NCBI GenBank assembly: GCA_021234155.1
Contig: JAJEKV010000002.1
Coordinates: 11,398,725-11,462,724 of the forward strand
Length of the DNA: 64,000 nucleotides
Origin: Isoetes taiwanensis
Taxonomy: Eukaryota; Streptophyta; Lycopodiopsida; Isoetales; Isoetaceae
Direction of reading: 5' to 3'
Shown in pieces: positions 4,201-34,439 of this stretch. The first letter of the stretch is position 1; each line of letters opens with the position of its first letter. Both the position numbers and the translations under genes were made by a program. The notes under the pieces were generated by a model. That model had not been told where the DNA came from, searched no databases, and saw only the letters and a program-made list of their open reading frames with translations.

Positions 4201-4318
4201 TTTTAAAGTCGAAAAAAATCTCATGAGAATGGCATGACCCTTATGAAGGAAATGTTAGATCTACTTTGATGGAAGTAGTGGAGGATTTTTTTAGCATAAA
4301 TTCCTTAGCTGCCATGAA

Positions 4319-6434: not shown

Positions 6435-7464
6435 TAGGTGTGCTAGATGGAGAACCTTTGGAGGTAGTGAAAGCATATAAGTATCTAGGAGTTGAGGTAA
6501 GCGACAATTATAAATGGAATTTGGCCGCTACCAAAAGGCATGTTGGTGGATTCCGAGCATTGTATGGCATGATGCGTATCTGTAAGGAAAGGAATTTTGA
6601 ACACTGGAATCTTAAGAAATTGCTATTTGGTGTTTTGGTGAAGCCAGTCATGTTGTATGGCTGCCCAGTTTGGGCTCCAGGATTGTCAAAATCGGAATGG
6701 ACTTGCATTGAAAGGGTGCAAAAACAATTTCTGGCATTCGAGCTTGGTGTTAAAATCCAGACACCATACAAAATGATGTTGGCTGAGGTCGGGTTTATGC
6801 CCATAGAAGCTGAAGCAGTTAGTCAAACACTGCATTATTTAAATAGAGTGTTGAATATGGACTCAGATAGACTCCTTAAACGGGCTTTACATATGTCAAT
6901 GCTCAAGGAAGGTGGCTTGTACCAAAAGGTGTTGGAATGGGCAAAGCTTGGGGGATTACTCCCCATAGTTGGCCGGATAAATTTTCTGATATAAGGGGCT
7001 TTGTTGGAGAAACATTTGTCAATAAATATTGGCATTTGACACCTGGAGAAGAGATAAAAGCGAGATTTTATAGATCTGAGTTTAATGCTATTGTAGGGGA
7101 CTCTGAGCAATCATACATGCAAGCAGACTTAAGTGTTAAAGAGCGGCAATTGATTTCGCAACTGAGACTGTCATCGCATCATTTGGCCATTGAAGTAGGT
7201 AGGTGGCATCGTATTCCACGGGAATATCGCCTTTGTCCATGCTGTTTGGTACAAATTGAGAATGAGATACATGCTTTCATTGCATGTCCTACATATGAGG
7301 ATATTCGGGGGGACTTTAGAATTACATGCAGTAGCTTGCGAGAGCTTATGGAAGTTCAACCAAGGAAACTGAGTGCCTACATCAAAAAGGTATATAAGGA
7401 AAGAACAGAGATAATTGCATTTTATGATTATATGCAGGAGATGGAAGTAGCTCATGAACGTTAA
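6398..7464 (+). pseudogene. LINE 1 thumb and C-terminal Cys/His domain
   Basis: Two overlapping frames. The first (6398-6994) has the YKYLGVEV strand and a thumb containing LYGCPVWAPGLS. The second (6937-7464) ends with LCPCCLVQIENEIHAFIACP, a C-x2-C...H-x4-C metal-binding pattern common at the end of LINE ORF2 proteins. The stop is at 7462-7464 and the 3' UTR is about 100 bases. Confidence 0.85.
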
Positions 7465-13662: not shown

Positions 13663-14020
13663 CATTTGGTCCACGGTGAAAAAAACGGTAAAAACAAAAA
13701 AATGAGTTTTTTGAAGATTTGAAAAAAAACCGTAGTTAGTTATATGGGGTGTGGTTTTCCAAGGATATGCTGTAGTTTTTCTTAAGGATGGGTGGTTTCT
13801 TAAGGAGGTGTAGTCTCTTTTTTAAAGATGTGTTGTTTTCTCAAGTAGTATAGTTTTTTGAAGGGATGTTTTTTTTTAAAGCTTTTTTTAAGGTAGTGGT
13901 TTAAGGTTTTCTTAAAATCTATGTATGACCAAGTTGTCCACATGCCATTACTGCCACAAAATGGCAGCATACAAGAGCTATATATGCTTGGCAGACTTAA
14001 CTAGCATTTGACTTCAAACA
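13663..14020. other. T-rich degenerate sequence, no gene
   Basis: Runs of T alternating with GTRGTTTTCTTAAGG-like segments (about 13740-13900) suggest a decayed tandem repeat. No ORF of note. Confidence 0.45.
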
Positions 14021-14600
14021 TGCTACCTAGGCTCCAACATGCCAAGGTGGCTCAAACATGCCAAGGTGGCTCCAACATGGCAACTAGGCTTCAACATGCC
14101 AAGGTAGCTCAAACATGCCACAGACTCCAACATGCCAAGGTGACTCAAACATGCCAAGGTGGCTCAAACATGACACCTAGGCTCATACATGCCAAGGTGG
14201 CTCAAACATGCCAAGGTGGATCAAACATGCCATGCGGGATCCAACTTGTCAAGGTGGCTCAAACATGCCACCTAGGCTCCAACATGCCAAGGTGGCTCAA
14301 GCATGCCAAGGTGGCTCCAACATGCCACCTAGGCTCCAACATGCCAAGGTGGCTCCAATATGCCACCTAGGCACAAACATGCCAAGGTGGCTCAAACATG
14401 CCACCTAGGCTCCAACATATGCCACGTGGGCTCCAACATGCCATCTAGACTCCAACATGCCACTTAGGCTCCAACGTGCCAAATATGCCACTTAGCTCAA
14501 ACATGCCAAGGTGGTTGAAACATGCCATGTGGGCTCCAACATGCCACCTAGGCTCCAACATGCCAAGGTGGCTCAGGCATGCCACCTAGGCACCAAATGC
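14021..14600. repeat. 19-bp minisatellite, left Foldback arm
   Basis: About 30 copies of a 19-bp unit alternating between CTCAAACATGCCAAGGTGG and CTCCAACATGCCACCTAGG. Because 19 is not a multiple of 3, reading frames through it produce long repetitive ORFs with a 19-residue period that are artefacts. Confidence 0.95.
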
Positions 14601-15766
14601 CACCTAGGCACTCCAAGCGGTGACATGGCATGCCAACTAAGCAAGGCCAAGTTTTGACTAGGCCAAAAATGAAAAGATGTCCATCTTTGGTCTTTTCATT
14701 GGGTGATGTTGGCAAATTTTGGTTGACATGGCTAGATGGTGGCGATGTGGACATGATGACTAGCACTTTATGCAAGAAATATGATAACCTTTAGAATTTT
14801 TTGGTAGAGGAGTTTGGCAAGGGATAGAATAGAGGGATCTTGAAGAACTTAAACGCTGACACCTTTCCCCAAATCGAACCAGTCCAGGACTTTGCACAGA
14901 AAGGCTTCCTCACCAGAGGGGAGAGCCCAGACCCCAGGAGACGGACCTCAAAAAGGTTGCAAAGGTAGCCTTTCCTGCCAACGATCCGGGAGGGCAAATG
15001 CCAATGCCCCCCCTCTTGGAGCTCGGTTTCCCTATCCGACCGTTGAATTCACCGTTCAAGTAACTTGCTTCAAGTAAATTCAAAAAAATCCAAGATCTGT
15101 CTGAAAGAACTTATCAAACTGCGAAGCGTCCTACGGTCGACTGTGTAGAAACCTAAGTGTTTTGTCGTTCGAGCAGTACAAAGGCTCCAGAATGGAGATT
15201 TGACTTCGCCATGTCATCCGGAATAGCAAATTTACCCTAGGAACCAAGTTATATGGTCATTTTTTGCAACAAAAAAACACGAACCTCTACATGGCGGTGA
15301 TACGCGGCCACCTCTTGGGCCAATTGACTCTGAACATATTGGACATGAGCTACCTTAAGCGCTTCTTGGAGAAAGGGTGGTCTTCCGCCCACGAAACTTG
15401 GTCTCGAGGGTAATGTCGATGTTTTGAGTCCATTGGCAGAGTCAGTTTATAGTTCCGGAGTGGGAGAGTTGCCCATCCGTGGCCAAGGGCCTTCAGGAGA
15501 GGACCTTTAGGGCGAACTGCTTCTGGAAGGTTTTAAGGGTCCATCTTCTGGCATCAACACCCTCCCTCCACGCGATGACATTGTGCAAGATCCTGGTCGA
15601 ATCTAATTAGGATATGGCCTTTGAAACGTAAACCCTGTGGTTTGCTAGGTTACTGAAGGGTTTACGTTATGGAGGTCGCGATTTAGTCGGTTGCACTTGG
15701 GACATGGTCAAGAAGCTGCAGTTAAAAACATGAAGCAATAAGAATTGAAGGAATGGGGTTTGGATC

Positions 15767-15850
15767 TATTGGCCATCCCGAATGATCCCAAACAATTTTG
15801 CTACTGCAAAAGGCGCTCTTGGCTTCTATTTGCCATTATGGGAGGAGGAT
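15767..15850. other. Loop of the Foldback palindrome
   Basis: Bases between the inner arm ends GGAATGGGGTTTGGAT (ending about 15766) and ATCCAAACCCCATTCC (starting about 15852). It holds no ORF. Confidence 0.75.
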
Positions 15851-16952
15851 AAATCCAAACCCCATTCCGTCAATTCCTATTACTTCGCATTTTCAATTGC
15901 AGCTTCTTGGCCATGTCCCAAGTGCAACCAATAAAAACTCGGCCTCCAAAACGTAAACCCTTCAATAACCTAGCAACACACAGGGTTTACGTTTCAGAGG
16001 CCATATCCTAATCAGATTCGACCAGGATCTTGCACAATGTCATCACGTAGAGGGAGGGTGTTGATGCCAGAAGACGGACCCTTAAAACCTTCCGGAAGCA
16101 GTTCACCCCCAAAGATCCTCTCCCAAAGGCCCTTGGCCACGGATAGGCAACTCTCCCACTCCGAAATTGTAAACTGATTCTGCCAATGAACTCAAAACGT
16201 CGAGATTACCCTCGGGACCAAGTTTCGTGAGCAGAAGACCACTCTTTCTCCAAGAAGTGTCAAAGTAGCTCATGTCCAATTTACGTTCCGAGTCAATTGG
16301 CGTAAGAGATGGCTGCAGAATATTGTCATGTAGAGGGTTCATGTTTCTTTCGTTGCCAAAAATGACCGTATAACTTGGTCCCTAGGGTAATGTCACCATT
16401 TCGGATGACATGGCGAAGTCGAATCTCCATTCCGGAGCCTTTGTATTGCTCGAACGACAAAACACTTGGGTTTCTACATGGTCGAGCGCAGGACGCTTCA
16501 CGGTTTGATAAGTTTCTCCAGACGGATCTTGGATTTTTTTGAACCTGCTCGAAGCAGGTTACTTGAACGGTGGATTCAATGGTCGGATAGAGAAATCGAG
16601 CTCCGGGAAGGGGGGCATTGGCATTTGCCCGCTTGAAGGAGCATTGGCAGGAAAGGCTGCCTTGGCAACCTTTCTGAGCTTCGTCCCCTGGGGTCTGGCC
16701 TCTTCCCTCTGGTGAGGAAGCCGCGCAAAGTCCTGGCCTAGTTCGATTTGGGGAAGGGTGTCAGTGCAAGATCCCTCTATTCTATCCATTGCTAAACTCC
16801 TCTACCAAAAATTCCAAAGGTTATCATATTTCGTGCATAAAGTCCTAGTCATCATGTCCATGTCACCACCATTTAGCCATGTCACCCAAAATTTGCCAAC
16901 ATCACCCAATGAAAAGACCAAAGATGGACATCTTTTCATTTTTGGCCTAGTC

Positions 16953-16964
16953 AAAACTTGGCCT
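16953..16964. repeat. Target-site duplication, left copy, LINE 3
   Basis: AAAACTTGGCCT here is repeated at 23700-23711. Fusing the flanks regenerates the Foldback right arm, whose counterpart in the left arm (AGGCCAAGTTTT near 14650) is uninterrupted. Confidence 0.88.
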
Positions 16965-16984
16965 AGCCAAAATGGGGAGAAAAT

Positions 16985-17518
16985 GTGGCTTGGCTTTTAG
17001 TAGGGGATTTCAATATGGTCGAATCAGCACAAGACAGATTAGGTGGTGGACAGATTGTAAGCGGCTTTGAACGGCAGCAGTGGCAGAAGTTACTCTTTCA
17101 ACATGGGTTTATGGAAGTTGATGGAGATTCATCTTTTACTTGGACTAATAATTGGGTTGGCCCAGGATTGTCACAGGCTCGTCATGATCGAATGTATGCA
17201 AATAGTGTGCTTTGCGATATATGTCCACGGTTATGGAGGCTTAATTATTTGGCACAAGCAGTCTCGGACCATAATCCTCAAATTCTTGAAAATCGTGAAC
17301 TTACTCATAGTCGACAAAAGAGAAAAACGGTATTTAAATTGAATACTAGATGGTTGCCTAATGAGGAGTTTGAAGCGGGATGTCGGGGAGGCTTGGCAAA
17401 AGGCTTCATCTCAACAACATGGTATCGAAAAGAATTGTTGAGGCTTTGGAAAATGTCAAGATTTTTTTGCGAAAAGGTGGGGGGCATAGCGAGTTTCGTG
17501 AAGAAAAAGAGACATTAA
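16985..17518 (+). pseudogene. LINE 3 endonuclease C-terminal half and linker
   Basis: Begins LLVGDFNMVESAQDRLGG, the active-site GDFN of plant L1-type endonucleases. FTWTNNWVGPGLSQARHDR follows, with a degenerate SDH motif (AVSDHNPQIL). The linker continues in another frame at 17380-17757 with helical, charged sequence. The N-terminal half of the endonuclease is missing because the copy is 5'-truncated. Confidence 0.85.
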
Positions 17519-17952
17519 GTAAGTTATATGCTGAATTAGAGGAGCTTAAGAAAGTGGGTACGGACTCTTTTAGATTGCAACAGGTTATTGATGCTATTCG
17601 TGGTCTTGAAGTGGCCCAAATTCAATCAGCACGAGTTAAATCTGGATTAACCTGGCTGAAAGATGGAGATCGTTGTAATAAGCTATTTTTAGAGCTTCAA
17701 AGCGAGAAGAGGTATGCAGCTACTATGCACTCTTTATCTCTTGGGATGGGAGGGTAATGACAGAGCCAAATGAGATTAAGCAGGTCCCTTACTCAATACT
17801 TTGAAACTTTTTTAAGGTCAAACACTTGCCTCATGAAGATGTAATCACGAGGATATTGTGCTTTCTAAGGTTCATGCAATTCTTTCACAAGAGGAATCTC
17901 AATTGTTAGAGGCCCCACTTTCCATATGCAGTGCGGCGGCAACATTTGAGTT

Positions 17953-18728
17953 AACCGGATAAATGTCCAGGTATGGATGGTATCCCTGTAGAATTTTTTA
18001 AAAGGTATTGGGAATGGACGTCAGTAAGCATTATGGAGGCCTACAAAGATTTGTGTACTTCACATCAATTTGATAGGATTTTGAATACGGGTTTGATTTC
18101 TCTTATTCCTAAAGTGAAAGAACCTGTGAGCATTCATGATTGGTGCCCAATAACTCTTCTATCTACTATCTATAAAATTATCATAAAAGCCTATCTTGAG
18201 AAAAGACTTAAGCAGGTTTTGGGATTGAGAATAGATGCGGCTCAGTCAGGCTTTCTTCCAGGTCGGCAAATTTTTCATAATATAGTGGCAGCATATGAAG
18301 GAGTTCATTGGGCCCAATGTTCAGGTCAAAATCTTCTATATTTAAAATTAAATTTTGCTAAAGCTTATGATAGTGTGAAGTGAAATTTCTTGGATGCCAT
18401 GCTTTTGAAATTGGGATTTGGGTCTGGTTTCCGATCTATGATGCCAAAAATGTTGATTTCTGCTAAGGGGGTAGTACTGTATCATGGAGAACCATTGGTG
18501 CTTTTTCCAATTGAACGTGGAATAAGGCAAGGTTGCCCTTTAGCTCCTTTTTTGTTTACTATAGTGGCAGAAGGACTTTCGCAACTATTGCACGAGGCTG
18601 AAAAGGATGGTTTGGTAAAGGGATTATTATTGGAGGAAGGTGAACAGGTTTTGGTTAATCAGTTTGCAGACGATACCTTCTTGCTAGTGGATGGTGAAGA
18701 GAATAATGTGCAGATAATCAAAAAGATA
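17953..18728 (+). pseudogene. LINE 3 reverse transcriptase, fingers and palm
   Basis: PGMDGIPVEFFKRYW opens the domain, then LISLIPKVKEPVSIHDWCPI, QSGFLPGRQIFHNI and LNFAKAYDSVK (motif A). A TGA at 18381-18383 interrupts, and the frame continues with IRQGCPLAPFLFTIVAEG (motif B) and VNQFADDTFLLVDG (motif C, FADD). Coding is cut at 18728, right after IIKKI, by the nested element and resumes at 21978. Confidence 0.9.
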
Positions 18729-18908
18729 TGACGTTTTCCTTCGTTTCAACGAATAGAAGGAAAACGAGGTTCTGGAAATACGGAGGCAGTTGGCAGTTAG
18801 CAGTTAGTTTGTTCTTTTCCCTATTTATGTGCTTCTTCGTCATGTTCTCGCTCATCAGCTCTCTTGAAGCATCTCCTTTCCTCTTCTTCCTTCTCTCTAC
18901 GGTTTGGC
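18729..18908 (+). repeat. A1 repeat (left terminus) with terminal hairpin
   Basis: 180-bp copy matching 21185-21364 with few differences. It begins TGACGTTTTCCTTCG and contains an inverted repeat TTTTCCTTC...GAAGGAAAA close to the tip, a possible recombination or folding signal. A TATA-like CTATTTATG follows around 18815-18830, so it may hold the promoter. Confidence 0.85.
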
Positions 18909-18917
18909 ACATTTTCT

Positions 18918-19014
18918 TCCTTCACGGTTCTTTTTAGGCTTGATAGCTGTTGTTGCATCCACGTTTCTTCACGGTTCTTTTTAGGCTTCATATCGGTGGT
19001 TGCATCCACGTTTC
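18918..19014. repeat. 47-bp tandem duplication in the leader of the split-repeat element
   Basis: CTTCACGGTTCTTTTTAGGC...TTGCATCCACGTTT occurs twice in direct succession just before the Gag-like ORF. Confidence 0.8.
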
Positions 19015-19019
19015 TGGTG

Positions 19020-19574
19020 ATGGCCCCGAAATCTGGTACAGTAAAGCTCAGGAAGAGGCATGCTTCTGGTTCTTCGGAGCAGGTTCCGGCATGGCTGAAA
19101 GCCATGGAAGGCAGATTGGAAGCGAAGTTTGATAGTTTGAGTGGCCTTATGGAGAGCAGATTGCAGGCGAAGTTAGACGATCTGAGTAGCTCTAAGGCAG
19201 AAATTTTTGCGACCCTGGAGTCTACGGTTTCTGCTCTGCAGGGAGAGATCCAACAGAAGAGCATGCGAGCAAGGGCTCCTCTCTTGAAATACCATGAAAA
19301 TAGGAAGCAGTATGATGTTTTTAATCGGTTGGAGGATTGTTTTCTGGATTTAGAGAGCCACCTACAGTCGCACAAGTTCCTGGACGCAAAAGCCAAGAGC
19401 ATCATCGATAGAGGTAAAGCTTTGATTTCTAACAGGAAAAAGATAATCTGCATCAGTGATAGGGAAGGGCCAGGGGTTGCGGAGTGCTATGAAATGGGGG
19501 ATTTTACTCTGTTTGATGGTTTGAAAAACGGCCCAAAGATAGGGCTTGATGGATCCGTGGTCACTCTGTCATGA
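19020..19574 (+). CDS. Gag-like coiled-coil protein of the split-repeat element, 184 aa
   Basis: Start at the ATG of MAPKSGTVKLRKRHASG, because the frame upstream runs back into the A1 repeat. The N-terminus is basic. Residues about 25-75 form a coiled coil (EGRLEAKFDSLSGLMESRLQ, then DDLSSSKAEIFATLESTV). Residues about 90-160 read ENRKQYDVFNRLED ... RGKALISNRKKIICISDREG, which from memory resembles the Gag-like protein of DIRS-type elements in animals (pattern QF-N...GK-LI--R-K-I-IADR). It would package element RNA. The ORF is intact, suggesting the insertion is young or the protein is under selection. The alternative is a LINE ORF1-like or unrelated protein. Confidence 0.5.
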   Translation: MAPKSGTVKLRKRHASGSSEQVPAWLKAMEGRLEAKFDSLSGLMESRLQAKLDDLSSSKAEIFATLESTVSALQGEIQQKSMRARAPLLKYHENRKQYDVFNRLEDCFLDLESHLQSHKFLDAKAKSIIDRGKALISNRKKIICISDREGPGVAECYEMGDFTLFDGLKNGPKIGLDGSVVTLS

Positions 19575-21143
19575 GACTTTGGGGTTTGCCAATTCTAACT
19601 TTCGGTGGGAAGCTGGTGGTTCGATTCTCTGTTCAGACGTTCTGCTTAATCTGCTCAGTTGGTTGGTTGAGATGGTTTTGTGTTGGTTTATGCTAAATTA
19701 AAGACAAAGTTTTCTGGAAGAAGGTTACGGGTATGGTTGGTTCTTTGAGATGGTTTTTCTTTAACAATTTCTTGTTCTGCCAAGCTTCATAATCTCCAAG
19801 CTAATAATTTTCGGGTTAATCCCCAGAAGTGTTAAAGTTGTTTGATTGCATGTGGTGTACGAACAGAGTTTTGAGCTTTCAGGAATTGTTGGTGTTCCTT
19901 GGTTTTCTCAGGGTTCCCATGATTATGTTTTGGTTATTCAATTCTGACCGGGTATTATAGTATGTTTTCAACTCATTGATTGATCCCATGATAGCTATTC
20001 TCAGGAAAAGGCCAAGACATTCCTGTGCTTGGTGGTCTCTGCACAAGTCGTTTGCCTGTCATCTGTTTTCCTTCTTGAACTGATCCATTTTACCCGACCT
20101 GTTTCATGGAGTGCCCTGTTCTATAGACTCGGACTCAGATTTAGCCCTGATTTTGCGACCTTGGAGAAAATTTTTAGCCCTGTTTTTAGCTGGAAGCATT
20201 CTTTGTTGTTGCCCTGTCAATGATTCCGGTTCTCCAAATCCTGGCCTACCTCAGTTGCAATGTCCAAGATCACTTAATAACTCATGCAAGTTCTGCCTTT
20301 TCGATTTTATCTGGTCCATCTTTGCCTGCGGATTTGGGCTCCAGATCGTAGCTTCTTTACTTCAGCAAGCCGCTTCTTTGCCGCTTCTTTGCCTCAGCAA
20401 GCCGCAGTTCCCTCGCCTCACCTTACTTCTTCTTGCTTGCCCCATTTCTTGCTTTGCCCCAGTGATTGCCGCCATTTTTGCTCGCCGTTCTTGCTCGTTC
20501 TACTGGCGCGGAGTTCTTGCTTGCAGTGCCAGCGAACCATACTTTATATGTAGGAAGTATTAATATTAGTTTTAAGTTCTATTTGGAGCCTGCTTATACC
20601 TATATTGTGTCCGCTTCGCCATCAATAAACAATAGTTATTGTTTTTCCTTGGGGGAACGTTTGGTGCCTAGACCTTGATCTTGATGTCTCTGATCCATTG
20701 CAACCTGTTAAAGTTTATGCATAACCTAGGCTTGCCCCTTTTTACTTAAAGTTGTCTTATGATTATGGATTTTTAATGGATCTATTGCAACCAGTTAAAG
20801 TTTATGCATATCCTGGTCTTCCCCTTTCTTTACTTAAAGTTGTCATATGGTTATGGACTTTAATAGACCAGAAGATCTAACAAGCCAAAATATTATCAGT
20901 CTTGCTATGTGGTATTTGAGAGGTTATGGTGTAACTATAACAAAGGTTTTTTGTTATCGTTGTTTCTCGGCACCTCATTATATACTTTATCTTGAGTTAT
21001 TATCTAAGGTTGGTTTTCTGCTCAGACGTCTAAGTGTTGAGCCAAGTTGTTTATGGTTGGCATTAGGTTGTTTCTCGGCCTGGTCCTTTTTAGTTATGCC
21101 TTGACCTCTAAGTGTTGACCTCTAAGAGACTTCTGCCTCTTCT
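19575..21143. other. Non-coding interior of the split-repeat element
   Basis: No RT, RNase H or recombinase motif on either strand over about 1.57 kb. A tandem duplication of about 88 bp (roughly 20691-20777 and 20778-20866, units sharing GTTAAAGTTTATGCATA and ACTTAAAGTTGTC) lies toward the end. The region 20280-20560 has a long Cys/Leu-rich ORF pair without recognisable motifs. Confidence 0.55.
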
Positions 21144-21183
21144 TCAGCATTCTTGTCCATGGCTATCCATAGTATTTCTAGAA
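21144..21183 (+). repeat. B1 repeat, abutting A2
   Basis: TCAGCATTCTTGTCCATGGC...TTTCTAGAA matches B2 at 21938-21977 with one visible difference (CCATAG against CCGTAG). The tip TTTCTAGAAA is a palindrome lying exactly at the B1/A2 joint. Confidence 0.82.
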
Positions 21184-21184
21184 A

Positions 21185-21364
21185 TGACATTTTCCTTCGT
21201 TTCAACGAATAGAAGGAAAACGAGGTTCGGAAATCTGAGGCGGGATTAGCGATTAGCGATTAGTTTGTTCTTTTCCCTATTTATGTGCTTCTTCGTCATG
21301 TTCTCGCTCATCAGCTCTCTTGAAGCATCTCCTTTCCTCTTCTTCCTTCTCTCTACGGTTTGGC
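21185..21364 (+). repeat. A2 repeat
   Basis: Second copy of the 180-bp A repeat, starting TGACATTTTCCTTCG and ending ACGGTTTGGC. After it the sequence diverges completely from that following A1. Confidence 0.85.
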
Positions 21365-21414
21365 CCACCCCCCCACCCTTCTCCTATTGTTATGTCTTGT
21401 TTGCAAACTAACAC

Positions 21415-21570
21415 TTTGTTGGAGGCCTTGTGCCTAGTTTGAGGCCTAGTGCCTGGTTGGGGCCTTTGTGCCTGGTTGAGGCCGGTGTGCCTTGTTGGGG
21501 CCTTTGTGCCTGGTTGAGGCCGGTGTGCCTAGTGGAAGGCTTGGTGCCTAGTTGGAAGCCTTGGTGGCTG
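21415..21570. repeat. GGCCTNGTGCCT short tandem repeat between A2 and B2
   Basis: About ten degenerate units of GTTGGGGCCTTTGTGCCTG type, giving repetitive ORFs on both strands that are unlikely to be genes. Confidence 0.8.
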
Positions 21571-21937
21571 GATGGCCTTGGTGGCCTTTGGTTTGTCTTT
21601 TTTGTGTATGCAGGGTTTAGCGTGGCCGTTTGGAGGAGGGCTTGAGATTCGGGCACAAGATGAAGATCAATGGAGAAGACAATTCAAACATGTTTCGTCT
21701 TTGGCTATTTCTTTGCTGTAATGTATTTTCTCCCAATAAGGCTAGTCAGCATGAGGGTACAAGATCTATTATGTTTTGGACCTAGCATCGGTTAGTGATC
21801 CCATTATTGTCAGGGTTTTTCCTCGAAAACCCGAAAGGGCGAGGTTTTTTAATCCCGGCCATAATGGTTTCACTAGCTTGCTATCTGTATGTACTTGTTT
21901 TTGGTTATCAAGGAGATGCCCAGAGATAGCATTCTTG

Positions 21938-21977
21938 TCAGCATTCTTGTCCATGGCTATCCGTAGTATTTCTAGAA
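21938..21977 (+). repeat. B2 repeat (right terminus)
   Basis: Second 40-bp B copy. The LINE 3 reading frame resumes immediately after it with TTGGATATATTTTC (LDIFS). Confidence 0.82.
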
Positions 21978-22512
21978 TTTGGATATATTTTCAATTGCAT
22001 CTGGTTGTCTCCTTAATTGGGCTAAGTGTAGTGCTTTATGGGTGGGGAAGGAAGTAGTTCCGCAATTTTTATATGAGTATGCCTGGAAGGTTGTTGTACC
22101 ATCTGCAAAGACAAAGCTTCTAGGAGTCCCCTTTGGTTTAGATATTGACATGAATGAAGCATGGGATGAAATTATCTTAAATTTACAAAGGCAACTGATT
22201 TGGTGGAGAGGTTCAAAGTTATCCTTGGCAGGTAGAATTCAAGTAGCTAAGTCAGTATTGAACAATACGCATATTTATTTGGTTTCGGTTCTATTGGCTC
22301 CAGCTTCTAAGTTTGCAGAGATAAAAAAGATTGTAAGAGATTTTGTCTGGTGTACCGATCAAGGAGGCACTGTGAACGTGGCGTGGAAGAAATGTATGTT
22401 GTTTAAACAACAAGGAGGACTTGGTATGTTGGATCTTTCTTTCTGTGGTAAGGTCTTAGCTTCTAAGCTATTGTTCGGTTTGTTGAAAGATGGTTGTGCA
22501 TCACCGGTATGA
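21978..22512 (+). pseudogene. LINE 3 reverse transcriptase, thumb region
   Basis: Continues the RT after the nested element: LDIFSIASGCLLNWAKC, ALWVGKEV, YLGVPFG-type KTKLLGVPFGLD, then WWRGSKLSLAGRIQVAKSVL and GGLGMLDLSFCGKVLASKLL, the usual conserved stretches of plant L1-type ORF2. It stops at 22510-22512. Confidence 0.88.
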
Positions 22513-23691
22513 AGTTACTTAAACAATGTATGGTTTTCAAAGAAGTGTATGGTTTTTCATAAGCTTCTTCACATGGTGTGAGAATTGAGCTCCCTTGGGC
22601 ATTGTTATATCCATTGAAAGCTTCTTCACATGCCTCTCCCCGATCTTGAAGTATACTTGCTTCAGGCCTAGAAGGTAGTCCATTGGATAAGGTGATTACA
22701 TTTGATTGGGAAGCTTGTCTCGGGCATCTTCCCCTTTACGTGGTTGCCTTTGTATACTTGGGGCCCATTGGCCAACTACACCCGGTTGTAGAATTTATGC
22801 AGTCGCGCATTCCCAAGCGAGGTGGAGGAGAGCGGTATTATTATTTCTATTGAGCGTGGTATTTTGGTATTGACATTGCTCCTTGGCAATGGTTTTGAGG
22901 AGACATATGGGTTGTTGGATAAAGATATCATTATATGGGCTTATGTAGCAAGTGCCCTTCCTCTAATTAAGAAGGTGGGTAACAAGAGATCTTTGGAACT
23001 TTGTTCAAGGTATTAAAGAAGGCAAGAAGCTAGTAAGTTCATGCTTCAGATTGCTTACCTCCTCAAATACTTTATCACCTTCTCGAAAATGGCACTTCAG
23101 GACTTTTGCCTTCTCAATGGCAATCCATCCGGAACCTTGTTTGGTCTCAATATAATCCTCAAAGGTAAATGTTCTACTTTGGCGGGTGATTCATCGCTCT
23201 TTGAGAGTTAATGAGATGGTTCATCGCTTTAAGTAGGGAGTAAGCCCACTTTGCCCAATGTGTGGCGGTGCATTGAAACATTGGAGCCTTTGTTTATATT
23301 TGTGTGCTGAGTGAGTAGTCTTAGGTCTGGCTGCATTCTCTTTTGGAGTATCTTTGGATAGTCGGCACTTTCTTTTGGGTATTTATCCAAATCGGTGAAT
23401 TTGCTTCTAAAAGGATTGCATTTCACATGGCAAAGTCTTGGCTAATATGGAGTGTCTGAAGCGAAGGCGAAGAAAGGTCTTTTATGATAAGCGTATTTCT
23501 TCTCGGTGGTGCTTCAAGAAATTAAGTAAGAAGTTGTATAATTGCTTTCGGATCTCCAATTGGCCCGATCGTATTAAAATTCCAATATGGAGTGATCATC
23601 TAAAAGTGATTGATGCTTCAGGGACATTTCTTACTTCTGGAAGTACTTTGTAATATTTTGAGTGCATAATATGAAGTAAAACACGTTCTTC
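22513..23691 (+). pseudogene. LINE 3 C-terminal region with zf-RVT-like Cys motif
   Basis: Heavily frameshifted. Around 23210-23310 the plus strand reads EMVHRFK, a stop, then GVSPLCPMCGGALKHWSLCL, matching the CPxCG zinc-binding end of plant LINE ORF2 (zf-RVT). The 3' UTR leads to the poly(A) run at 23692. Confidence 0.75.
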
Positions 23692-23699
23692 AAAAAAAA

Positions 23700-23711
23700 A
23701 AAACTTGGCCT
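23700..23711. repeat. Target-site duplication, right copy, LINE 3
   Basis: AAAACTTGGCCT, identical to 16953-16964; the As merge with the poly(A) tail. Confidence 0.88.
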
Positions 23712-24022
23712 TGCTTACTTGGCATGCCATGTCACCATTTGGAGTGCCTAGATGGCATGCTTGAGCCTAGGTGGCATGCTTGAGCAACCTTGGCATGTTG
23801 GAGCCTAGGTGGCATGTTGGAGCCCGTGTGGCATGTTGGAGCCACCTTGGCATGTTTGAGCCTAGGTGGCATGTTTGAGCCACCTTGGCATGTTGGAGCC
23901 CACCTGGCATGTTGGAGTCCACGTGGCATGTTTGAGCCACCTTGGCATGTTGGAGCCCACGTGGCATGTTAGAGCCCACGTGGCATGTTTGAGCCACCTT
24001 GTCATGTTGGAGCCTAGGTAGC
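23712..24022. repeat. 19-bp minisatellite, right Foldback arm (inverted)
   Basis: Reverse-complement units (CCACCTTGGCATGTTTGAG / CCTAGGTGGCATGTTGGAG), about 15 copies, fewer than the left arm's roughly 30. The block ends GGAGCCTAGGTAGC. Repetitive ORFs here are artefacts. Confidence 0.95.
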
Positions 24023-24375
24023 TAGCTGCTGGTTTCTTGCTGTTGGGTTATGGCTGCATATGATTTAGCTGCATGTGCTTCGTTCACTGGAGCTTATTAG
24101 GTTCAGGCTTGGGCTTGATCGAAACTACTATTTTCAAAAACCATATGTTGATATTCTGTAAAAACACATGTTATTTTTTTAATAAAAAACAAAAAAAAAC
24201 AACACCTAAAAACAATGCATTGATTTTTTTCAAAAAGCTGTCAATTTTCTATGCATAGATTTTTTAGCCAAAAACTACACGTTGTTTCTAGCATTTTCGG
24301 AACAAAACAACAGGTGGGCTTTAAGTGTTGTTTTTCTTCAAAAAAGACAGTGAAAAACTACACATAGAGCGAAAT
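24023..24375. other. AT-rich spacer, nothing recognised
   Basis: Sequence between the Foldback end and the LINE 4 fragment, with A-rich runs near 24180-24200 and no convincing ORF. Confidence 0.5.
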
Positions 24376-24475
24376 TTAGGGTTAGTGTGCTCCTCTGCCC
24401 ATATTGTCAGCCACTGCTCAAGGATGCCAGCCAACAGTTTTGCAAAGTGAGAGCTGACCATAATAGTATGATAGT
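24376..24475 (-). mobile_element. LINE 4 fragment, downstream part of RT fingers
   Basis: On the minus strand this reads NYHTIMVSSHFAKLLAGILE, then QWLTIWAEEH, the segment that follows PIYK...NY in LINE reverse transcriptases. It joins in frame with 39573-39387 once the gypsy element and one ATAGT copy are removed. Confidence 0.82.
24471..24475. repeat. 5-bp target-site duplication, left copy
   Basis: ATAGT, repeated at 39387-39391 directly beyond the other LTR. Confidence 0.9.
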
Positions 24476-26943
24476 TGTTAGCCTAAAACCTGGAACTTTA
24501 GTCTAACCTCAAAGGAAGTTTAAACAAAGTGGTTAGAACCTCCAGATCACTTAGGGTGATCAATCCTTGTCATGTGAAACAAGAAAAGTCATTTTGAAGT
24601 GCTGGTTTTTTCAAAATCACTAGAGTCCCTGAAACTGAAAAAACTGTCAGGGCAAAATCTGACCTTGCAGACACACCTTGTGAGATTTTTGAGATCTTAT
24701 TGATGGTATAGATGGTCAACAAGCAGAGGAAACTTGTGGTGAAAATTTGATTTGATTTGAATGAAGGAAGGTCAAGAAAATCTAGGTCAAAGATGGGTCA
24801 AAAAGTTGGCCAGTGCCAAAACAGAGAGCCAAAATTTGCAGATGGAGTCTGATAGGGAATTTTGGGTTGGGATCTGTGCAGGCAACTTCAGAATAGCGTC
24901 TAGATCACGTGCATAAGGTTTAACTAGCAAAAAGATGTTTTAATTTTTCTGTAAGTAGTCAAAGCTTCAAGAAAAAGACAAACTCTGTAACAGTTATGAG
25001 AAAAATTCTTTTTATATGTTTTCTCTGGATGTATAGGCTTCTAGGATTTTTATGAGGATGAAATGCAACTACCTGAAGGGAATATAACTTGGAGTAAATA
25101 TTTTGGCTTTGTATTTAGTTTTAAGCTTTAACAAACAATGCAAGGTTATAAAGGATGAATGAATAATGATGACAATAATTTTCCAGGCAAAGACTATGTA
25201 TTATAGCAAGATGATACCGAAAAATCTAATAGTATCAAAAGGTATTACCAAAATAATGGTGCTTGAGAGCAAATTCCAGGGTTGTCTGAGCCTCTAGAAA
25301 GCCTCAAACTACCAATGAAGCACAATGAAGTGATTATTAGAGTTGCAGTTGAAGTGTTTTGATGTCGAACAAGTCACGCCATGTCAGATTCTTCGGTTTG
25401 AGCGAGAAATAGAGCAAAATTTGAGCGAGTAGAGCAAGATAATATCAAGAAATAGTGCGCCAAAATCCAGAGGTATATCTCGAGGGGCGTATTGATTTGA
25501 TCAGTATTCTTTGGCTTAAGAACCGTTCTTCCCACAAACTAGCTTCGGCCGAAAGTGATGTAAGGCCAAATTTGAGCAATTTCTCTCGGATCAAGTGCCA
25601 CAGAGGATCCCCAAGGTCTCGGAAAAGGTTCAGGAGATAATTTCGGGTGAAAATTGGCGGGCTTCAATTAAATTTAGGCACGAATTGGCCGGATTTAGCA
25701 GTCTCCCCTATTTTTTAGGGTTCGTCGAAAAATTCTAAAGGGTTATATATCCCACAGGCCGAAAAGGTTTTGGCGACTCCTGTATATAAGGAATAACGTT
25801 GACCGGTCTAATAAGATTGTGTGCCACCTTGAGGGGACAACTAGCCCGTGTAATACGGCCCCCGCCCCGCCACGTGGAAATGGGAATGAAAATAGGGGGT
25901 GATGTGGAAACGATGTAGAGGTGATGTGGAAATAGATAGGGTAGATAGGCTATAATAGGTTTTTTATTTTCTATGGCACGCATCCCAAGAATCCAAATTT
26001 GAAGGCCTTTACAAGGGTTTTTTCAAAATTTAAAAAAGCCAAATTAGCTCTTTTTTGCCAAGCTTTCCATCTAGAGAAATTTTGGTTGAGCTGAAACACT
26101 TCAATTTTTTGCCCTTTTGACCCATGGTCAATGAATACTGCAACTTGGAGATGGTGAAAAAATCATGGGAAAAAGATGGGGAAAAGGTGCAAATAGGCTA
26201 TAATAGGGTTTACGAAGATGAAATGAGGGTGAAAATAGAGTTTTCTTGCCCTTTTCGGTTTTCAAGATCATTAGGGGGCAATTCTCAAATGAAGGTAGGA
26301 CCAATAAAAAGTGGGTAGTGGAATGATGAGAAAAGGACTCAAAGGTGGAAAAAATGGTGAAAGAAAGGTTTTTGAAGGCTCTTGGGATATAAAAAGGTGT
26401 ATATAAGATGAATGGAATGAGGAAAAGATGGGTACCTCTGTAGCACTTGATTTCATCTCATATTGTTTCTAAAGCTCAAATCATACCTCATAGTGAAAAT
26501 AAGTTTGCTCACAACCTAAGGGTCTTCAAACTTCTGTAAGGGTCTTCCAAACTTCAAGGCTAGAATAAGAGCAAATTTCACTTCCAAGATGGCATTCTCA
26601 TGTGTGTGACCTCAAAACTACTAATGCAACTCAAGTAAGCTTCATAAGGTTGAACTTTGGTAAAATGCCTTGTGGCTCCTTGATAAACGTGCTATAGCCT
26701 TTGCCTGGTCTTCAAATCAAAGGGAAAATGTTAAACAAATGGGAATGTGTCTAGAAAGGTGCTTTACCTCAAGGAAAAGACTAGGCTATAAAATGAGATC
26801 CCCAATGCCTTCCAATCTTGGTCAAATGTCTTCCAAACTCTAATGGGATCACAATAGCCTGGAACTTTTCCTTAGAGGAAATATAAATGAAACAAAAGGT
26901 TTGATACATAGATGCTGGTCCATGTTGCCAAACATGGGCAACA
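24476..26943 (-). repeat. 3' LTR (left), 2468 bp
   Basis: Plus-strand ends are TGTTAGCC...GGGCAACA, near-identical to 36922-39386. It carries a short extra stretch near 24938 (TTTTAATTTTTCTG) absent from the other LTR. It contains the palindrome-prone tip TGTTGCC...GGCAACA. Confidence 0.93.
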
Positions 26944-26960
26944 TCTCCTCAAAGGAAAGA
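26944..26960 (-). promoter_or_regulatory. Candidate polypurine tract
   Basis: Reading toward the 3' LTR on the minus strand, the last internal bases are TTTGAGGAGA followed by the LTR start TGTTG. It is a short purine run in the position where plus-strand priming occurs. Confidence 0.4.
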
Positions 26961-27524
26961 ATAGGCTGGTCCCCTCAGCCTAACAGATGTAAACTTAGAC
27001 TGAGGATCTTCAGATAATGCAAAAATTTACTGGTGCAGGTGACAGAATGATGTAGAATGATGAAAGAGAGTGGTATGAGTATGAGATGAACTCTGCTATG
27101 GTGGAAATGTGGTGCAGAGCATTGGAGGAAATGAAAATAAAAGAATAGAAGGCTGAAATGGTAGGTAAGGCAACTTATAGGCAGATGGAAATACAGGAGA
27201 AAAGAATGAACCTGCATATGACAGTAAAATCAAAGTTAGCATGAGTGCCAAGCAAGATATGGAAAATTATATATGGATAGCACTCTAGAACTCCAATGAA
27301 GAAGCAAGGTCTCATGAAGAATAAGCCAGTTTACAAGGCAGATGAAATGTGTTGACAAATGGCCCCACATCATGACAACATAGAACTCATTAGTAGGTAA
27401 TAATCAAAGTCTTATCCCCTGTGGCCACATCCCTGCAGCTAAACAGAAACAAACACTATTAAACCTCAAAGGAAATATGCAAATCAAAAGAAATTTTAAA
27501 AACTCAACTTTGAAGCTATAAACT
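26961..27524. other. Non-coding tract between integrase stop and 3' LTR
   Basis: No conserved motif; short ORFs only. Typical of the 3' untranslated part of large gypsy elements. Confidence 0.5.
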
Positions 27525-27527
27525 AAC

Positions 27528-28855
27528 CTATTCTAAGCTAGAACAAATGTCTATATAGAAATGAATAGGCTTAAGCGGGGCATCTTTGAGGCCAATATCT
27601 TTTAAGGGGTTTGGCAACTCTAAACCTGTACCAAGATCTGTCAATCTATAAGATGAGCAGCCAGCCTCTCCTAAAAATCGATAGGGGCCCTCCAGGGGGT
27701 TTTCAAACTTGGAAAGCTTTCCTTCATCTGCAACATTCCACTTCAAAACTAATTCCATAGGTGCAAACTTATCTTGTAGTTTGTGAGCAGCCTTGAAAGT
27801 TGCTGCACTCTTTAGCCTTCTTGACAAATTGTAATTCTCTGCAACAAACCTTTCTTCATCCAATTTTAACAGATTTTCATACCTGTGCTTCAAGGCTTCA
27901 GAAAACTCCAACTCAAGCTTGAGTGCCATCCTTAAAGAGGGTATCTCTAACTTTCATTTGGGAATGATGACCTCTACTCCATATACTAAACTGAAAGGTG
28001 AGGCATTAGTAGCTGCTTTAGAGGTAATTCTATGAGCCCAAAGAGCATCATATAATTTCAAGTGCCAATCCCTTTGGTTTTGGCAAACTGTTTTCTGCAA
28101 AATACCCTTAAGCACTTTGTTAGTAGACTCAGCTTGGCCATTTCCTTGAGGATAATAGGCTGAGCTTTTCACATGCTTGATCTTGAGGCTTGAAACAAGA
28201 AAATTAATCACCTCATTAATAAAAGTAGAGCCTCTATCAGTCAAAATTTTAAAGGGAATGTCAAACCTGGAGCAAATATTCTCATGCAAAAATCTAGCAG
28301 TAGTATGGGCATTTGCTTTCCTTAAGGGTCTTTGCTTCTGACCACTTAGTGAACAGTGCGTAGCTACAACAATGTATTCATCTTTGGGCTGAGGATGGAG
28401 GATTGATAGGACCAACATAGTCCAATCCCCAAACTTGAAATGGACCAGGGGAGACAATTCCTGTAAGAGGAGCAGGGTGCAAGATTCTTTTGCCAAAGAT
28501 CTGGCATTGATGACAAGTCTTTATAACATCATAACAATCTTTAAATAAATGAGGCCAAAAGTAACCAGACCTCAATATCTTCTTGGCGGTTATTATGCGC
28601 TGCAAAATGACCACCACAAACACCTTTGTGATTTTCAGCAAGTACCAGGGCAGCTTCATCTTCATCAACACATCTTAAGAGTACACCATCCCTGTTTACC
28701 TTGCACAAAATGTCACCAACCAAGGAGTAAGTCAAACATTTTAAACTTGTAAGCTTGGCTTTTTGAAAATTCAGAAGGTATCTCTTGATACTGAAGGAAC
28801 CTCCTAATAGGTTGTTGCCAACCTTGAGCTTGTATAGCTGACAAGTCCTGCTCAT
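27528..28855 (-). pseudogene. Integrase and C-terminal tail of gypsy pol
   Basis: Three frames joined by frameshifts: 28855-28541, 28671-28378 and 28496-27954, then 27929-27528. The HHCC zinc domain is visible as ENHKGVCGGH ... CHQCQIFGK. The catalytic core starts WGLDYVGPI (first Asp), has LTDRGSTFINEV (second Asp) and YPQGNGQAESTNK (Glu). A typical C-terminal piece WAHRITSKAATNASPFSLVY follows, with a tail ending in SLE. It would insert the element DNA into the genome. All three catalytic residues survive, but the frame does not. Confidence 0.92.
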
Positions 28856-29235
28856 TTACAACAAGGTTAGTCATTTCTTCTTCTTGTACAACATCCTCAT
28901 GTTCAAAGTAGGCAGCAGGTAAGTATAAACTCGGATTGTTCAATACATGAATGACCTTTACCTTTAAATCATAAGATTGGAGCCTACAAGCCCATCTATG
29001 AAGCTTGGGTTTTTCTAATTTCTTACCATACAAAAAAGGCATGGGGTTCTGCTGCATGTAGATAGTGGCTTGGGATTTTTGTAGAAGATGTCCCTGTCTT
29101 TCTATCAAAAAGATGAGAGCAGCAGCACTCCTTTCTACCTTAGCATACTTCTCTTCAGCTTGAGACCATTGTTTGCTTGCAAAAGCAATGGGGTGCCTAT
29201 CCTGCAAAATGGCAACTCCAGCAGCTTTTTTAGTA
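28713..29235 (-). pseudogene. Gypsy RNase H domain, 5' part lost at the foreign insert
   Basis: Minus-strand frame opening TKKAAGVAILQDRHPIAFAS, then KQWSQAEEKYAKVERSAAAL, KLHRWACRLQSYDLKVKVIH and a connection segment. The leading YTDAS strand with the first catalytic Asp is absent because the roughly 4-kb insert begins just upstream (minus sense). This is the RNase H normally fused to RT in Ty3/gypsy. Confidence 0.87.
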
Positions 29236-32200
29236 ATGGTTATATAAACTTTAAATGGTAATGAAAGGTTTGGAGTTTTTGGGTTGCCCCTAGGGGGGCA
29301 AGCCCTTGTTTATGTGGGTTTATGGCATATTCCAGGTATGTGCCAATATATGCCTGGAATATGCCAATGACTGCTAAAAACTTGATATCGGAGGTAAACT
29401 GGCGGTGGCCATTTGTTGGTGGCGACCACTTTCGAAAACCGCATACGGTCTTTGGGTCCTCGCTATAAGCATTCTTATTCAAGAAGCTTTTGGATCTTGA
29501 CTTCTAAGAGATGGTAGAAAAAGAGCAAAGTTTTGGCTTGGCGCGGATGATGGAATCAAGAAGTCCCGAGGGACAAGCACTGAAGATGGGAAAAACCCAA
29601 ATGACCGGGGAAAGAAATCTGGTAGGGATTGCTTTCGGTTTAAGACCAAGTGATCGAGAACAAAGGTAATTTTGCTGCGTTTTGGATTCAAGCAAGAAAT
29701 TAGATTTAATAGCAAGAAACAGAGTATCTAGAAGCCAGGAGCAAGCTATTTGATGAGCTGCAAAGCTTGGTGAAGCAACTCCTTCATGTTCGATTAAGAA
29801 TCGAATCTTCTTGTATGCACTATGTTAATTGATTGCGGTCTGCGGTAGCAAGAAATTGCTCTTGCCAAGGCGCGGTCACATGTCTGTCACATTTATTACT
29901 CATTACGCTCATAAGGTGCGTTTGATGCATAGTTTTCCAGTTTAACTTACGTTAATACTTTCTTTTTCTCTGTTTTACCGATTTGGTGCCTTAGCTGGTT
30001 CGTTTTGCCTCCACAAATTCTCATCCATGACATGATGATTAGGTAATTTTTGCATTGCGCATGGTATGCTATATCATGTTTACCTGAGAAAATGGTAATG
30101 ATGTGCAGGTCAAAGTGCAACTTTTCTTTACATACCAGACTATGCATAAATTCTTCGTGGTCAGATTTCTTGTCCGCATTAAAGCGATCTGCATTTCCTT
30201 CCCCTGTTTGTTTCTTCGTGCATCTTTATCAGCTTGAATTTTTCGAGACCCCATGCCTTTAATGACACCTTGTAAGATTTTAGCTTTTCTGGCTGGATAT
30301 CTGACATGCAAATAAGAAATATCCCATGTTGTTTTTGTTTTCTAGAAATATAGTATATCAATGGTGCAGTCTTTCCTGTGGCATTTATTTGAATCTAACA
30401 GAAGCTTTTCAGTAGGATTTTGGTACGTCTACTTTATTTCCTAGATCGCATGTGAGAAAAAATGTGCAGCTTTACAATCTATATTATATCCTTGCTCTGT
30501 TATTTGATACCATGTTTCTAGGTATAAAGCAACATAGGAGAAGAAATCACATGCTTGCAATAGATTGTCGAATAGATTCTTCTATCCCTAAAAGAATTTT
30601 CCGTTATTCATTCTATTGTGCTGTACAAGGGAGCGAAGCCAAGAATTATGTCTTTTGCGCTATGAAAAAGCAGGATCATTATATTCACATGTGTTGGATA
30701 TAAGGAAGCACAGAAGCAAAGAATTTTGGTGATTTGAAGGGATTCGTCTGTGAAAAAGACTAAAGAGCCAGAAAACTTGCCTGTTTTGGATATTCTAGCA
30801 AGAGGGATATATTATATTTACTTCAGCCATGGATGGCCCAATTGTGGGAAGAAGAAAGAACCGGCATGCGGGTAATTTGCCTTCAAAAAGAGGGCAATAT
30901 CTTGAGGCATTGTCAATTATATGGAGATGATATGACATCAAGAAAAACATGCAAACACTAGAAGCAAGTGCTCATTTCAAATTCTTTGGATGCCCACAAA
31001 CACCGGATCGTGAATTAAAACTGATATCGATGGTAAGTCTTTGGATTTATTCTCGCTTAAATCTTAAAGCTAGCTTGTCTATGATAAAAAGCGGTGCATT
31101 TTTTCTTTTGTCTTGGCAAGACAATCATTTAAAGGCAATTGTTCTACTTTGATAGCAGACACTAAAGATGGATTTGGTTTGCTTAAGACTCATCTTAATC
31201 AATGATAATGGGATCATATATCTTTTACATCAGGGAATGAAGCACTTAGGTCCTATGCTATCATGATCAACGACGAGATCGAATCTGTGCAACAGGAGGT
31301 GCAGATAGATATGAAAATCCCCAAATGTTCGGATCAAGACTCGCCATTACCAATCTATTTGAAGATGAGTGCAAGCGTATTATGCGCAACATAAATTTGT
31401 ACATTTACATTACACTCGTCCCTCCCTTAGATGTTGCATAGGTCGAGAACAGAATAAAGTTAGATCTAAGATTACATCTTTGAAATATGTAGGAAGGCGA
31501 ACGCGGTAGCTTCTCTCAAAAAACTTGTTCTCATGGAATATTATGGTCTCAATATATGCCCAAGGCAATATTGGAATGGTCAATTGACCTTATTGATAGT
31601 ACCAACAGAATGTAGGCATCATTGGTTGCATATGAACCTAATCTTTACCCCACTCTGATATCTTATTGTTGGTATCATGTAGATCCATCTATATTTTTCC
31701 CAGTTGATGTCAGGTTCACCTCTCCAAGAACATTCTGCAATATAAAGGTACTGTATTATGTTCTGGCAATATTAGTATCAAATATATTATACATGGCTTT
31801 ACTGTACATTGCAGGTTGCAAGTGTGAACCAGATACAGAATGGAGATGATGTAAAGTTTACAGTGAGGACACAGCTTATTACTGACAAATACCAAGTGTT
31901 TTAGCACAAACAACTAAGCTCGTCCATCTAGGGACAATTGCTTTTGTGCATCCATCGGTCATAGTTGTGAGAAATAGCTTGCAGTCATTTGTAGCTCTGG
32001 CGTATTATTTCCAAACGTCATTTGATTCTCATTTGTTGTTGAGACATATCGCGGCAATTACAAATTAAATCTACAAAGTTATAGTTTGACTAAAGCTGTG
32101 GTCTCGCACTCATAATTAAGCGTTCCAATAATTTACTTTCAGCATTCCCATTTCGGATATAATTTCTTATCCCAAAATTGTGTTCATACAAAAAAGAGGG

Positions 32201-33263
32201 AGAAAAAATCTCAGGAAGCTCTTACATTTGAAGTTTAGTTAAATGCATTTCAGGTTCGCACGCCTGATGCCAAAGTGGCATAATTTTTTTTAAGAATGTT
32301 ACGAGATTTTCACCCGTCCGTTAAAATTGCATTTCTTGAACCTTCTTGTGCAAGCAATTGCATTTTCGGCCTCTCTCTAATGGCGTCTGCCAGGGATATT
32401 TGTATACAAGATAATCTATGAAACACAATTCTTGGATTGAAAAAAACTTGTTAAGGGTGGCTCCATATATCTATGAAATACAATTATGGATCCAAAAGAA
32501 CTTGTTAATGGTGGGTGCCAGGTAATTTATATGGAACATAGATGTTGGATTAAATAAACTTGTATGGGAGGGCTCTTGTGTAATTAATCTATTTTGGACA
32601 CACTTGCTTTATCCAATGAGTTGTGTTCACAATTTTTCGCAATGCATGTAGTTTATACCTTGCCTTTTTTTTTTGCCCTTTGCTAGGGCGACTTCGTTGT
32701 TCCCACGGCTATCCCACGGCTATTGAGCCCTCGTGACATTCTTTGTCTATAGAACGAAATAGCTCTTCATTGAAAAGGATACAATTTTAATAATGGCTTT
32801 CCAATTGAGATTTTACACATTGAAAATGTGATATAAATCATCACCATAAGTGTGATAACCATCAAGTCAATTGGGTATGGTCAGGTTGCAAGGGAGCATT
32901 CAATGTTCTTTGTTGTTTGCTCTCGAAATGTAATGAGACTTTTTCATTATTGTTCCAAGAACACATGATGTAACATTTGAAAATTTGGTGGACTCTCTTG
33001 CACATACAATTAGTTTTTCTTCTTCAATGAAATTAACACCTTGCATTGATAGGAACAATCTGATATCATGGCAATGCCATATAAGCTTGTATTTTATTGA
33101 AAAATTGTGGCATTCAAAATATCATAATGGGGAACATATAATTCTTTCGATAGTAACAAGCTAAAATACGAAGAGTAAACAACATTAATCTTAAGAACTT
33201 GGAAAAACAGAAACCATGAAAACACACTTTCACGCCATCGAAGGGCAACCCCTCGTGCGCAGC
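29236..33263. other. About 4-kb foreign insert inside gypsy pol
   Basis: Pol reads to ICHSTLLT at about 33264 and resumes with TKKAAGVAIL at about 29235; everything between has no gypsy homology that I can see. The left part (29279-29300) and right part (33240-33262) share GGGTTGCCC in inverted orientation, a weak hint of terminal repeats. Inside, 29511-29665 is an ATG-initiated exon-like ORF ending at a good donor (CAAAGGTAATTT), and further gene-like patches occur near 30829-31030 and 31235-31380. A hairpin GGCATATTCCAGG...CCTGGAATATGCC lies at about 29325-29365. No product recognised; probably a transposon that captured gene fragments. Confidence 0.6.
29511..29665 (+). CDS. Candidate first exon of an unrecognised gene in the insert
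   Basis: Begins MVEKEQSFGLARMMESR and runs 51 codons plus two bases to a consensus donor AAAGGTAATT. Composition is less AT-rich than around it. No family recognised and downstream exons are not certain; it may be a captured gene fragment. Confidence 0.25.
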
Positions 33264-34300: not shown

Positions 34301-34439
34301 TATAGATCTCCCATTTGCAAAGTTACGGACATACCTCCCTTATGCACTTCAAGCTCTTTGTGTGATTCCTCTTGTGCTAGGTTGATGGTCAAGATAGGAT
34401 GAAATTGAGAGAGCTCATCTTCATCTAGAACATCTTCCT

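Follow-up and report, generated by a model that had tools for sequence, protein, structure and literature searches.

A Probable Split-Direct-Repeat, Tyrosine-Recombinase-Type Retrotransposon in a LINE of the Lycophyte Isoetes taiwanensis

Overview

A 64,000-nucleotide stretch of the Isoetes taiwanensis genome (assembly GCA_021234155.1, contig JAJEKV010000002.1, forward-strand positions 11,398,725 to 11,462,724), hereafter the window, harbors an insert at 18728–21977 that interrupts the reading frame of an L1-type long interspersed nuclear element (LINE). With a probability of roughly 0.93, the insert is a non-autonomous split-direct-repeat (SDR) tyrosine-recombinase (YR) retrotransposon of Ngaro/PAT-like organization, here in a lycophyte host. 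The main observations behind this assignment are (i) the order of the repeats, (ii) exact element ends, (iii) an empty target site, (iv) a target preference, (v) a multi-copy family, and (vi) a relative with Gag, reverse transcriptase (RT), a weak ribonuclease H (RNase H) match, and YR motifs.

Repeat Layout of the Insert

The insert follows the order A1…B1A2…B2, with all parts on the plus strand. A1, the left terminal repeat (18728–18908), starts with ATGACG, a start common to other copies, and recurs internally as A2 (21184–21364); aligned over 18724–18908 and 21180–21364, the two are 93% identical, with differences in 13 of 186 columns. B1, the internal right-end copy (21144–21183), and B2, the right terminal repeat (21938–21977), match at 39 of 40 positions, and both end in CTAGAA. 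With the insert read as 18728–21977, B1 ends at 21183 and A2 begins at 21184, leaving zero bases between them. An earlier note, made from the letters of this DNA, had given these repeat positions and their order correctly to within one base. No other set among the 12 direct-repeat pairs of the window (at least 30 nt, at least 85% identity, copies more than 150 nt apart) has the A1…B1A2…B2 arrangement. Inverted repeats of at least 20 nt, and with them terminal repeats of the DIRS1 kind, were not reported across 16000–25000.

Between A1 and B1 lie a Gag-like open reading frame (ORF; 19020–19574, 184 aa plus stop) and an internal region (19600–21143) that is devoid of recognizable RT or YR, is 90–97% identical where whole in other loci, and includes an 87-bp tandem duplication at 20692–20864. 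A Pfam scan of 10 of the 37 open pieces of at least 45 aa in this region gave none over cutoff and one weak match (E 0.052). The right arm between A2 and B2 (21365–21937) is apparently non-coding and is 94–99% identical in the nine complete copies.

Host LINE and Empty Sites

The host LINE occupies 16967–18727 on the plus strand to the left of the insert, where it ends in …AAAAAGAT, and resumes in frame as TTTGGATA… at 21978–22512. Its frames are broken further upstream, and 16967 is a provisional outer limit. An RVT_1 match covers 18384–18731 (E 7.9e-10), and once 18728–21977 is removed, the LINE frame that begins at 18384 stays open for 292 codons. This joined frame aligns to human L1 ORF2 gap-free at the junction, with a best PDB match at E 2.8e-20. 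The matching bases of the two insert flanks amount to 1 nt only.

The joined flanks (150 + 150 bases) served as an empty-site query against the window's own assembly, which spans 1,658,258,908 bp in 1110 contigs. All 40 scored LINE copies (of 304 candidates) match at 97–99%; 39 align from base 1 to base 300, and 33 span exactly 300 bp. The four empty sites read base by base are each AAAAAGAT|TTTGGATA, gap-free, and therefore the insertion duplicated nothing. The claim of the earlier note that the LINE frame breaks and resumes without a target duplication thus holds at the empty sites, which it had named as the place to look.

One other copy (L044, at C1018:11212583) sits in the same LINE at the same base as window position 18728, with the two SDR copies approximately 205 kb apart. 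This pair stems either from duplication of a block or from two separate insertions at a favored site.

Target Preference

The bases flanking the left end were compared at 16 distinct target sites, two of which come from a single cluster (L047). GAA stands directly left of the insert at 8 of these (background 2.1%, P = 5e-10) and GAT at 3; position by position, 12 sites have G at −3, 14 have A at −2, and every one has A or T at −1. B, too, ends in GAA, the letters favored in the left flank. At the window's own site, GAT is kept on the left and GAA on the right. Among the 10 distinct insertions with both ends read, none has a flank match of 2 nt or more. The target pattern is that of recombination through a short shared core with occasional mismatch, not duplication. 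Such insertion, with no target duplication and at a short sequence shared with the putative circle junction, is what characterizes SDR YR elements.

The Family in the Genome

The A1 query returned 40 scored matches of 543 candidates in the assembly. These are spread over no fewer than 14 contigs that each exceed 1 Mb, which makes contamination unlikely. Twenty further stretches were fetched for comparison of layout, and nine of them (L031, L033–L039, and L044) carry the complete order of A1, gag or a gag remnant, B1A2, arm, and B2 with identical ends. Every one of the 15 joints read is CTAGAA|A(T/C)G, the right ends read in the window and in 10 other loci are CTAGAA in all 11 cases, and all 17 left ends are A(T/C)GA, those of L034 and L035 being extrapolated by 2 nt. 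The internal B1A2 joint accordingly equals the two outer ends joined, as the earlier note had proposed, and other copies end at the A1 and B2 letters instead of at 21183 or 21364.

These ends and the empty sites bear on the reading of A1 and A2 as ordinary long terminal repeats (LTRs) of an LTR retrotransposon that is followed by unrelated sequence. A1 and A2 are indeed direct repeats that flank a Gag-like ORF. However, A2 is not terminal, the LINE resumes only after B2, all right ends read lie at B2, no target duplication accompanies the insertion, and the RT-bearing relative described below has YR-like sequence and no rve integrase match in the frames scanned. The empty sites read rule out an LTR retrotransposon, and this reading is left with next to no credibility. 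The earlier note had itself named LTRs with target-site duplications as the case that would overturn its interpretation, and neither the empty sites nor the 10 insertions bear that case out.

Of 12 copies compared, six have an A2 that equals their own A1 in all 181 columns, while A varies between some copies. Identity within copies is predicted if the ends are restored from the internal joint, and recent insertion of any repeat-bearing element would fit it too. In the window, 11 of the 13 A1/A2 differences fall within one 38-column patch, a clustering equaled in 0 of 20,000 random placements. The patch lies at about 18773–18808 and 21229–21264, and scrambled variants of it occur in L043, L044, and L046. 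Mutation hotspot, template switching, and assembly error are all possible sources of these differences, the last because the assembly is described as polished Nanopore (PMC8566536). Dating of the insertion from A1/A2 divergence was dropped, given this concentration of differences in one patch and the odd variants there in other copies.

At C919:21434500-21454400 (L047 and L048), many copies bearing A and B are clustered; some of them are inverted or nested, and the interior is partly different. In L051 (C283:91000-99900), the A1–B1 interior measures 7 kb, of which approximately 5 kb is unlike the window element. L051 was rejected as an autonomous copy, as nothing in Pfam matched its three forward frames at E ≤ 0.1; its extra interior may be captured or nested sequence.

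An RT-Bearing Relative

One divergent Gag match with a long frame, on the minus strand of contig C974, was read in three pieces (L058, L056, and L057); it is one copy among many Gag places in the genome. Its order is A1, Gag, an RT/RNase H frame, YR-like sequence, the B1|A2 joint, and part of the arm. The Gag of this relative has a CCHC knuckle (7.6e-6) and is 47% identical to the window Gag over 168 aa. The 674-aa frame matches RVT_1 at 3.3e-16 and RNase H families weakly (E 0.011–0.2, below cutoffs), so that RT and RNase H, the enzymes expected of an SDR YR element, are found in the relative. A B-like sequence ending in CTAGAA adjoins an A-like sequence starting with ATGACA right after the YR-like motifs. 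The A repeats of C974 are 98.3% alike over 180 nt, and its part of the arm is 81% identical to the window right arm over 143 nt.

For the frame after the RT, PDB gives 17 matches at E ≤ 1, every one of them to Cre or the Cre variant Tre (best 0.013), and this frame holds the arginine motif AFLRSSEL; another frame holds HSGRRGGAT, HGRW, and DGYV, all of them read by eye. By the general rules for tyrosine recombinases, these motifs may belong to such an enzyme. Together, the low-scoring matches and the motifs suggest, if weakly, that C974 carries tyrosine-recombinase-like sequence. The SDR layout, the nine complete loci, and this relative agree with the PAT/Ngaro-like YR architecture that the earlier note had recognized. 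A copy with RT, RNase H, and YR between A1 and B1, which that note had regarded as the thing to look for, is seen here in part: the RT is clear, the RNase H weak, and the YR discernible from weak scores and motifs.

By structure, which does not by itself separate Ngaro from PAT, C974 is Ngaro-like, with a YR-like sequence in direct orientation, a joint after that sequence, and no methyltransferase match. Assignment of a genuine SDR element to the PAT or DIRS branch instead is a serious, if less favored, possibility. Pat1 also combines SDRs with a Gag zinc finger (PMC4157794), and the Gag of C974 has its CCHC knuckle. Against this branch stand the direct orientation and position of the C974 joint after the YR-like sequence and the lack of any methyltransferase family among the Pfam matches of its RT frame at E ≤ 1, the C-terminal part of that frame being unassigned.

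Points Against the Assignment

Several observations weigh against an SDR YR retrotransposon. The window copy itself has no RT, RNase H, or YR match, and its Gag has no good match in Pfam, NCBIfam, or PDB. The YR of C974 scores weakly: PF00589 appears at E 0.06, below its cutoff, and is unlisted at E ≤ 0.1 when the whole frame is scanned; PHROGs integrase matches reach E 0.08 and 0.41; Pfam, PDB, and PHROGs all gave nothing for the C-terminal piece; and the AlphaFold model of the N-terminal piece is unusable (predicted local distance difference test, pLDDT, 42). This YR is also split by at least one frameshift, and therefore no activity is claimed for it. Its A repeat is just 69% like that of the window, which makes C974 a relative and not a proven partner. 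The earlier note was right that the window copy is Gag-only and non-autonomous, with no RT or YR match; the active partner that it implied elsewhere in the genome stays putative, this copy being divergent and frameshifted.

Variation within the family points the same way. A1 and A2 differ in the other six copies compared (2–29 columns) as well as in the window (13), and B1 and B2 differ at 0–6 of 40 positions in the nine copies with both compared. Eleven of the 20 fetched loci (L032, L040–L043, and L045–L050) lack the complete layout: they are partial, truncated where a contig ends, rearranged, or part of a cluster. Among these, L042 reads A-arm-B and L049 reads A-B, with one A and one B each.

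Such single units would be expected if two short elements with nothing but their ends in common (A…B + A…B), for example Helitron-like ones, had joined head to tail as a dimer. Helitrons, too, are not known to duplicate their targets, and the two interiors show no significant similarity to each other. The dimer is nevertheless very improbable. The same order and the same arm recur at unrelated sites, and a diverged version occurs in the RT-bearing C974. The 20 loci show no lone A-gag-mid-B unit (L041, truncated where its contig ends, is uninformative), and L042 is explicable by A1 × A2 recombination, much like solo LTRs. Helitrons typically begin with TC, end in CTRR, and insert between A and T. 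Here, the ends are ATGACG and CTAGAA and the targets GAA-like (left flank GAA in 8 and GAT in 3 of 16), and Helitron membership was rejected. The SDR YR retrotransposon is retained as the preferred reading.

The Gag-Like ORF

The Gag-like ORF lies in an open frame of 257 codons, which exceeds the longest run in each of 1000 order-1 random sequences (maximum 238). Homologs in the genome (150 scored of 682 candidates) are 46–100% identical. The protein is without a zinc knuckle, and its AlphaFold model, of low confidence (pLDDT 62), predicts a long coiled coil plus a helical hairpin, with no PDB fold match at E ≤ 0.001. Scans of viral contigs for relatives of Gag, of a Gag motif, and of the C974 RT frame yielded none.

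Selection was assessed from the ratio of nonsynonymous (dN) to synonymous (dS) divergence in 7 of 16 listed copies, comprising six in which the 184-aa ORF is intact, the window among them, and L039, included for its divergence. L039 compared with the six intact ORFs gives dN/dS of 0.20–0.24 (dN 0.15, dS 0.71, 113 codons). When near-identical intact ORFs are compared with one another (15 pairs, 1–22 changes), the ratio scatters from 0 to values above 1. Between L051 and the window, the noncoding middle is 93% alike and gag just 77%, and therefore copies look mosaic. The substitution ratios indicate that Gag was probably under purifying selection in the past, and mosaicism forbids assigning that selection to the short form.

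A broader proposal, speculative and on balance improbable, is that SDR YR retrotransposons are a large, old resident lineage in lycophytes. Part of them would be a satellite class with a stand-alone short Gag (184 aa, no zinc knuckle) under purifying selection, which would act in trans on autonomous relatives as a packaging helper or an interfering Gag.

A Proposed Cycle

From this layout, we infer a cycle that includes a DNA circle, a template role for B1A2, limits of transcription, and mobilization in trans. RNA would start inside A1 and stop inside the right arm or B2; Gag would package it, and an autonomous relative would supply the enzymes for its reverse transcription. With the internal joint B1A2 as template, the missing ends would be restored, and the cDNA would close into a circle with the junction CTAGAA|ATGACG. 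The tyrosine recombinase of the relative would then recombine this junction with a genomic GAA-like trinucleotide to give target-GAN + A1…B2-GAA, with zero bases duplicated.

Two structures at the element ends are possible recombinase sites. A 12-bp perfect palindrome, ATTTCTAGAAAT, spans the B1|A2 joint (21174–21185); palindromes of equal length are centered at 0.04% of window positions. A hairpin whose outer stem measures 11 bp may form at the tip of A1 (18732–18766, plus strand; −12 kcal/mol as folded DNA, z −3.86), and its counterpart in A2 is weaker (−8.7 kcal/mol, z −1.77).

Other Features of the Window

The window contains several further mobile or repetitive sequences. A Replitron HUH endonuclease domain at 3–725 on the plus strand (PF21859, E 1.9e-6), which scores 28.6 bits where the cutoff is 28.5, marks a probable Replitron, a type reported absent from seed plants and hornworts (PMC10741241). 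A second, different endonuclease-RT (non-LTR) element extends over 4295–7461 in several frames. Directly upstream of the host LINE lies a large imperfect palindrome (14644–16967, 86%), and like minisatellites stand in opposite orientation at 14014–14655 and 23700–24022. On the minus strand, 24476–39386 probably represents a Tat-type Ty3 LTR element: direct repeats of 2.5 kb (96%) form its LTRs, and an additional RNase H (RVT_3) lies upstream of an RT that was read by eye, an arrangement reported in clubmosses and gymnosperms (PMC10508981). Together with the Replitron domain, this arrangement suggests a lycophyte host. Finally, a tandem duplication of approximately 770 bp (98.7% identical) occupies 56237–57777.

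Relation to Known Systems and Significance

The C974 order, A1, gag, RT/RNase H, YR-like sequence, and B1A2 over the stretch read, resembles that of Ngaro elements, as do the lack of a methyltransferase match, the lack of target duplication, and insertion by short identity. Unlike Ngaro, the host is a land plant and the window copy retains just a short Gag. PAT elements (Pat1, Toc3, Kangaroo) share the split direct repeats A1-B1-A2-B2 (PMC4157794), whereas C974 has no methyltransferase match and its YR-like sequence is not inverted, unlike the YR of Kangaroo. The same source places Toc and Kangaroo in green algae, describes a derived Pat1 lineage without methyltransferase, and holds that split repeats arose more than once. 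DIRS1 likewise combines RT/RNase H with a tyrosine recombinase, no target duplication, and short target identity (PMC3266345), and differs in having inverted terminal repeats and internal complementary regions where the present element has direct repeats. In VIPER of the trypanosomatids T. cruzi and C. fasciculata, A1 opens the element at its 5′ end and B1-A2-B2 closes it at the 3′ end (PMC6681497); host and sequence differ.

A 2022 review gives this kind of YR retrotransposon as missing from land plants (PMC9033089), and the lycophyte SDR elements contradict that statement. Full novelty is tempered by the DIRS label that has already been applied to plants: it appears among the groups of plant retrotransposons in a 2024 review, with no example in the part seen (PMC11630846), as a class in PlantRep (PMC9035001), and in the annotation table of a fern, which counts 361 "DIRS" fragments without structure (PMC6890710). 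The term "DIRS" is absent from the main text of the Isoetes genome paper as far as consulted (PMC8566536), and no published description of such an element in a lycophyte was found in the partly seen literature searched, to which Repbase and subscription journals did not belong. The novelty is one of host range, a land plant, and of Gag-only satellites, not of mechanism.

With their exact empty sites, their target motif, and a relative that bears RT and YR-like sequence, the SDR elements extend this order of retrotransposons to land plants and suggest that LTR-based annotation may overlook them. They also provide a plant system for testing how split repeats regenerate element ends and how a tyrosine recombinase chooses GAA sites.

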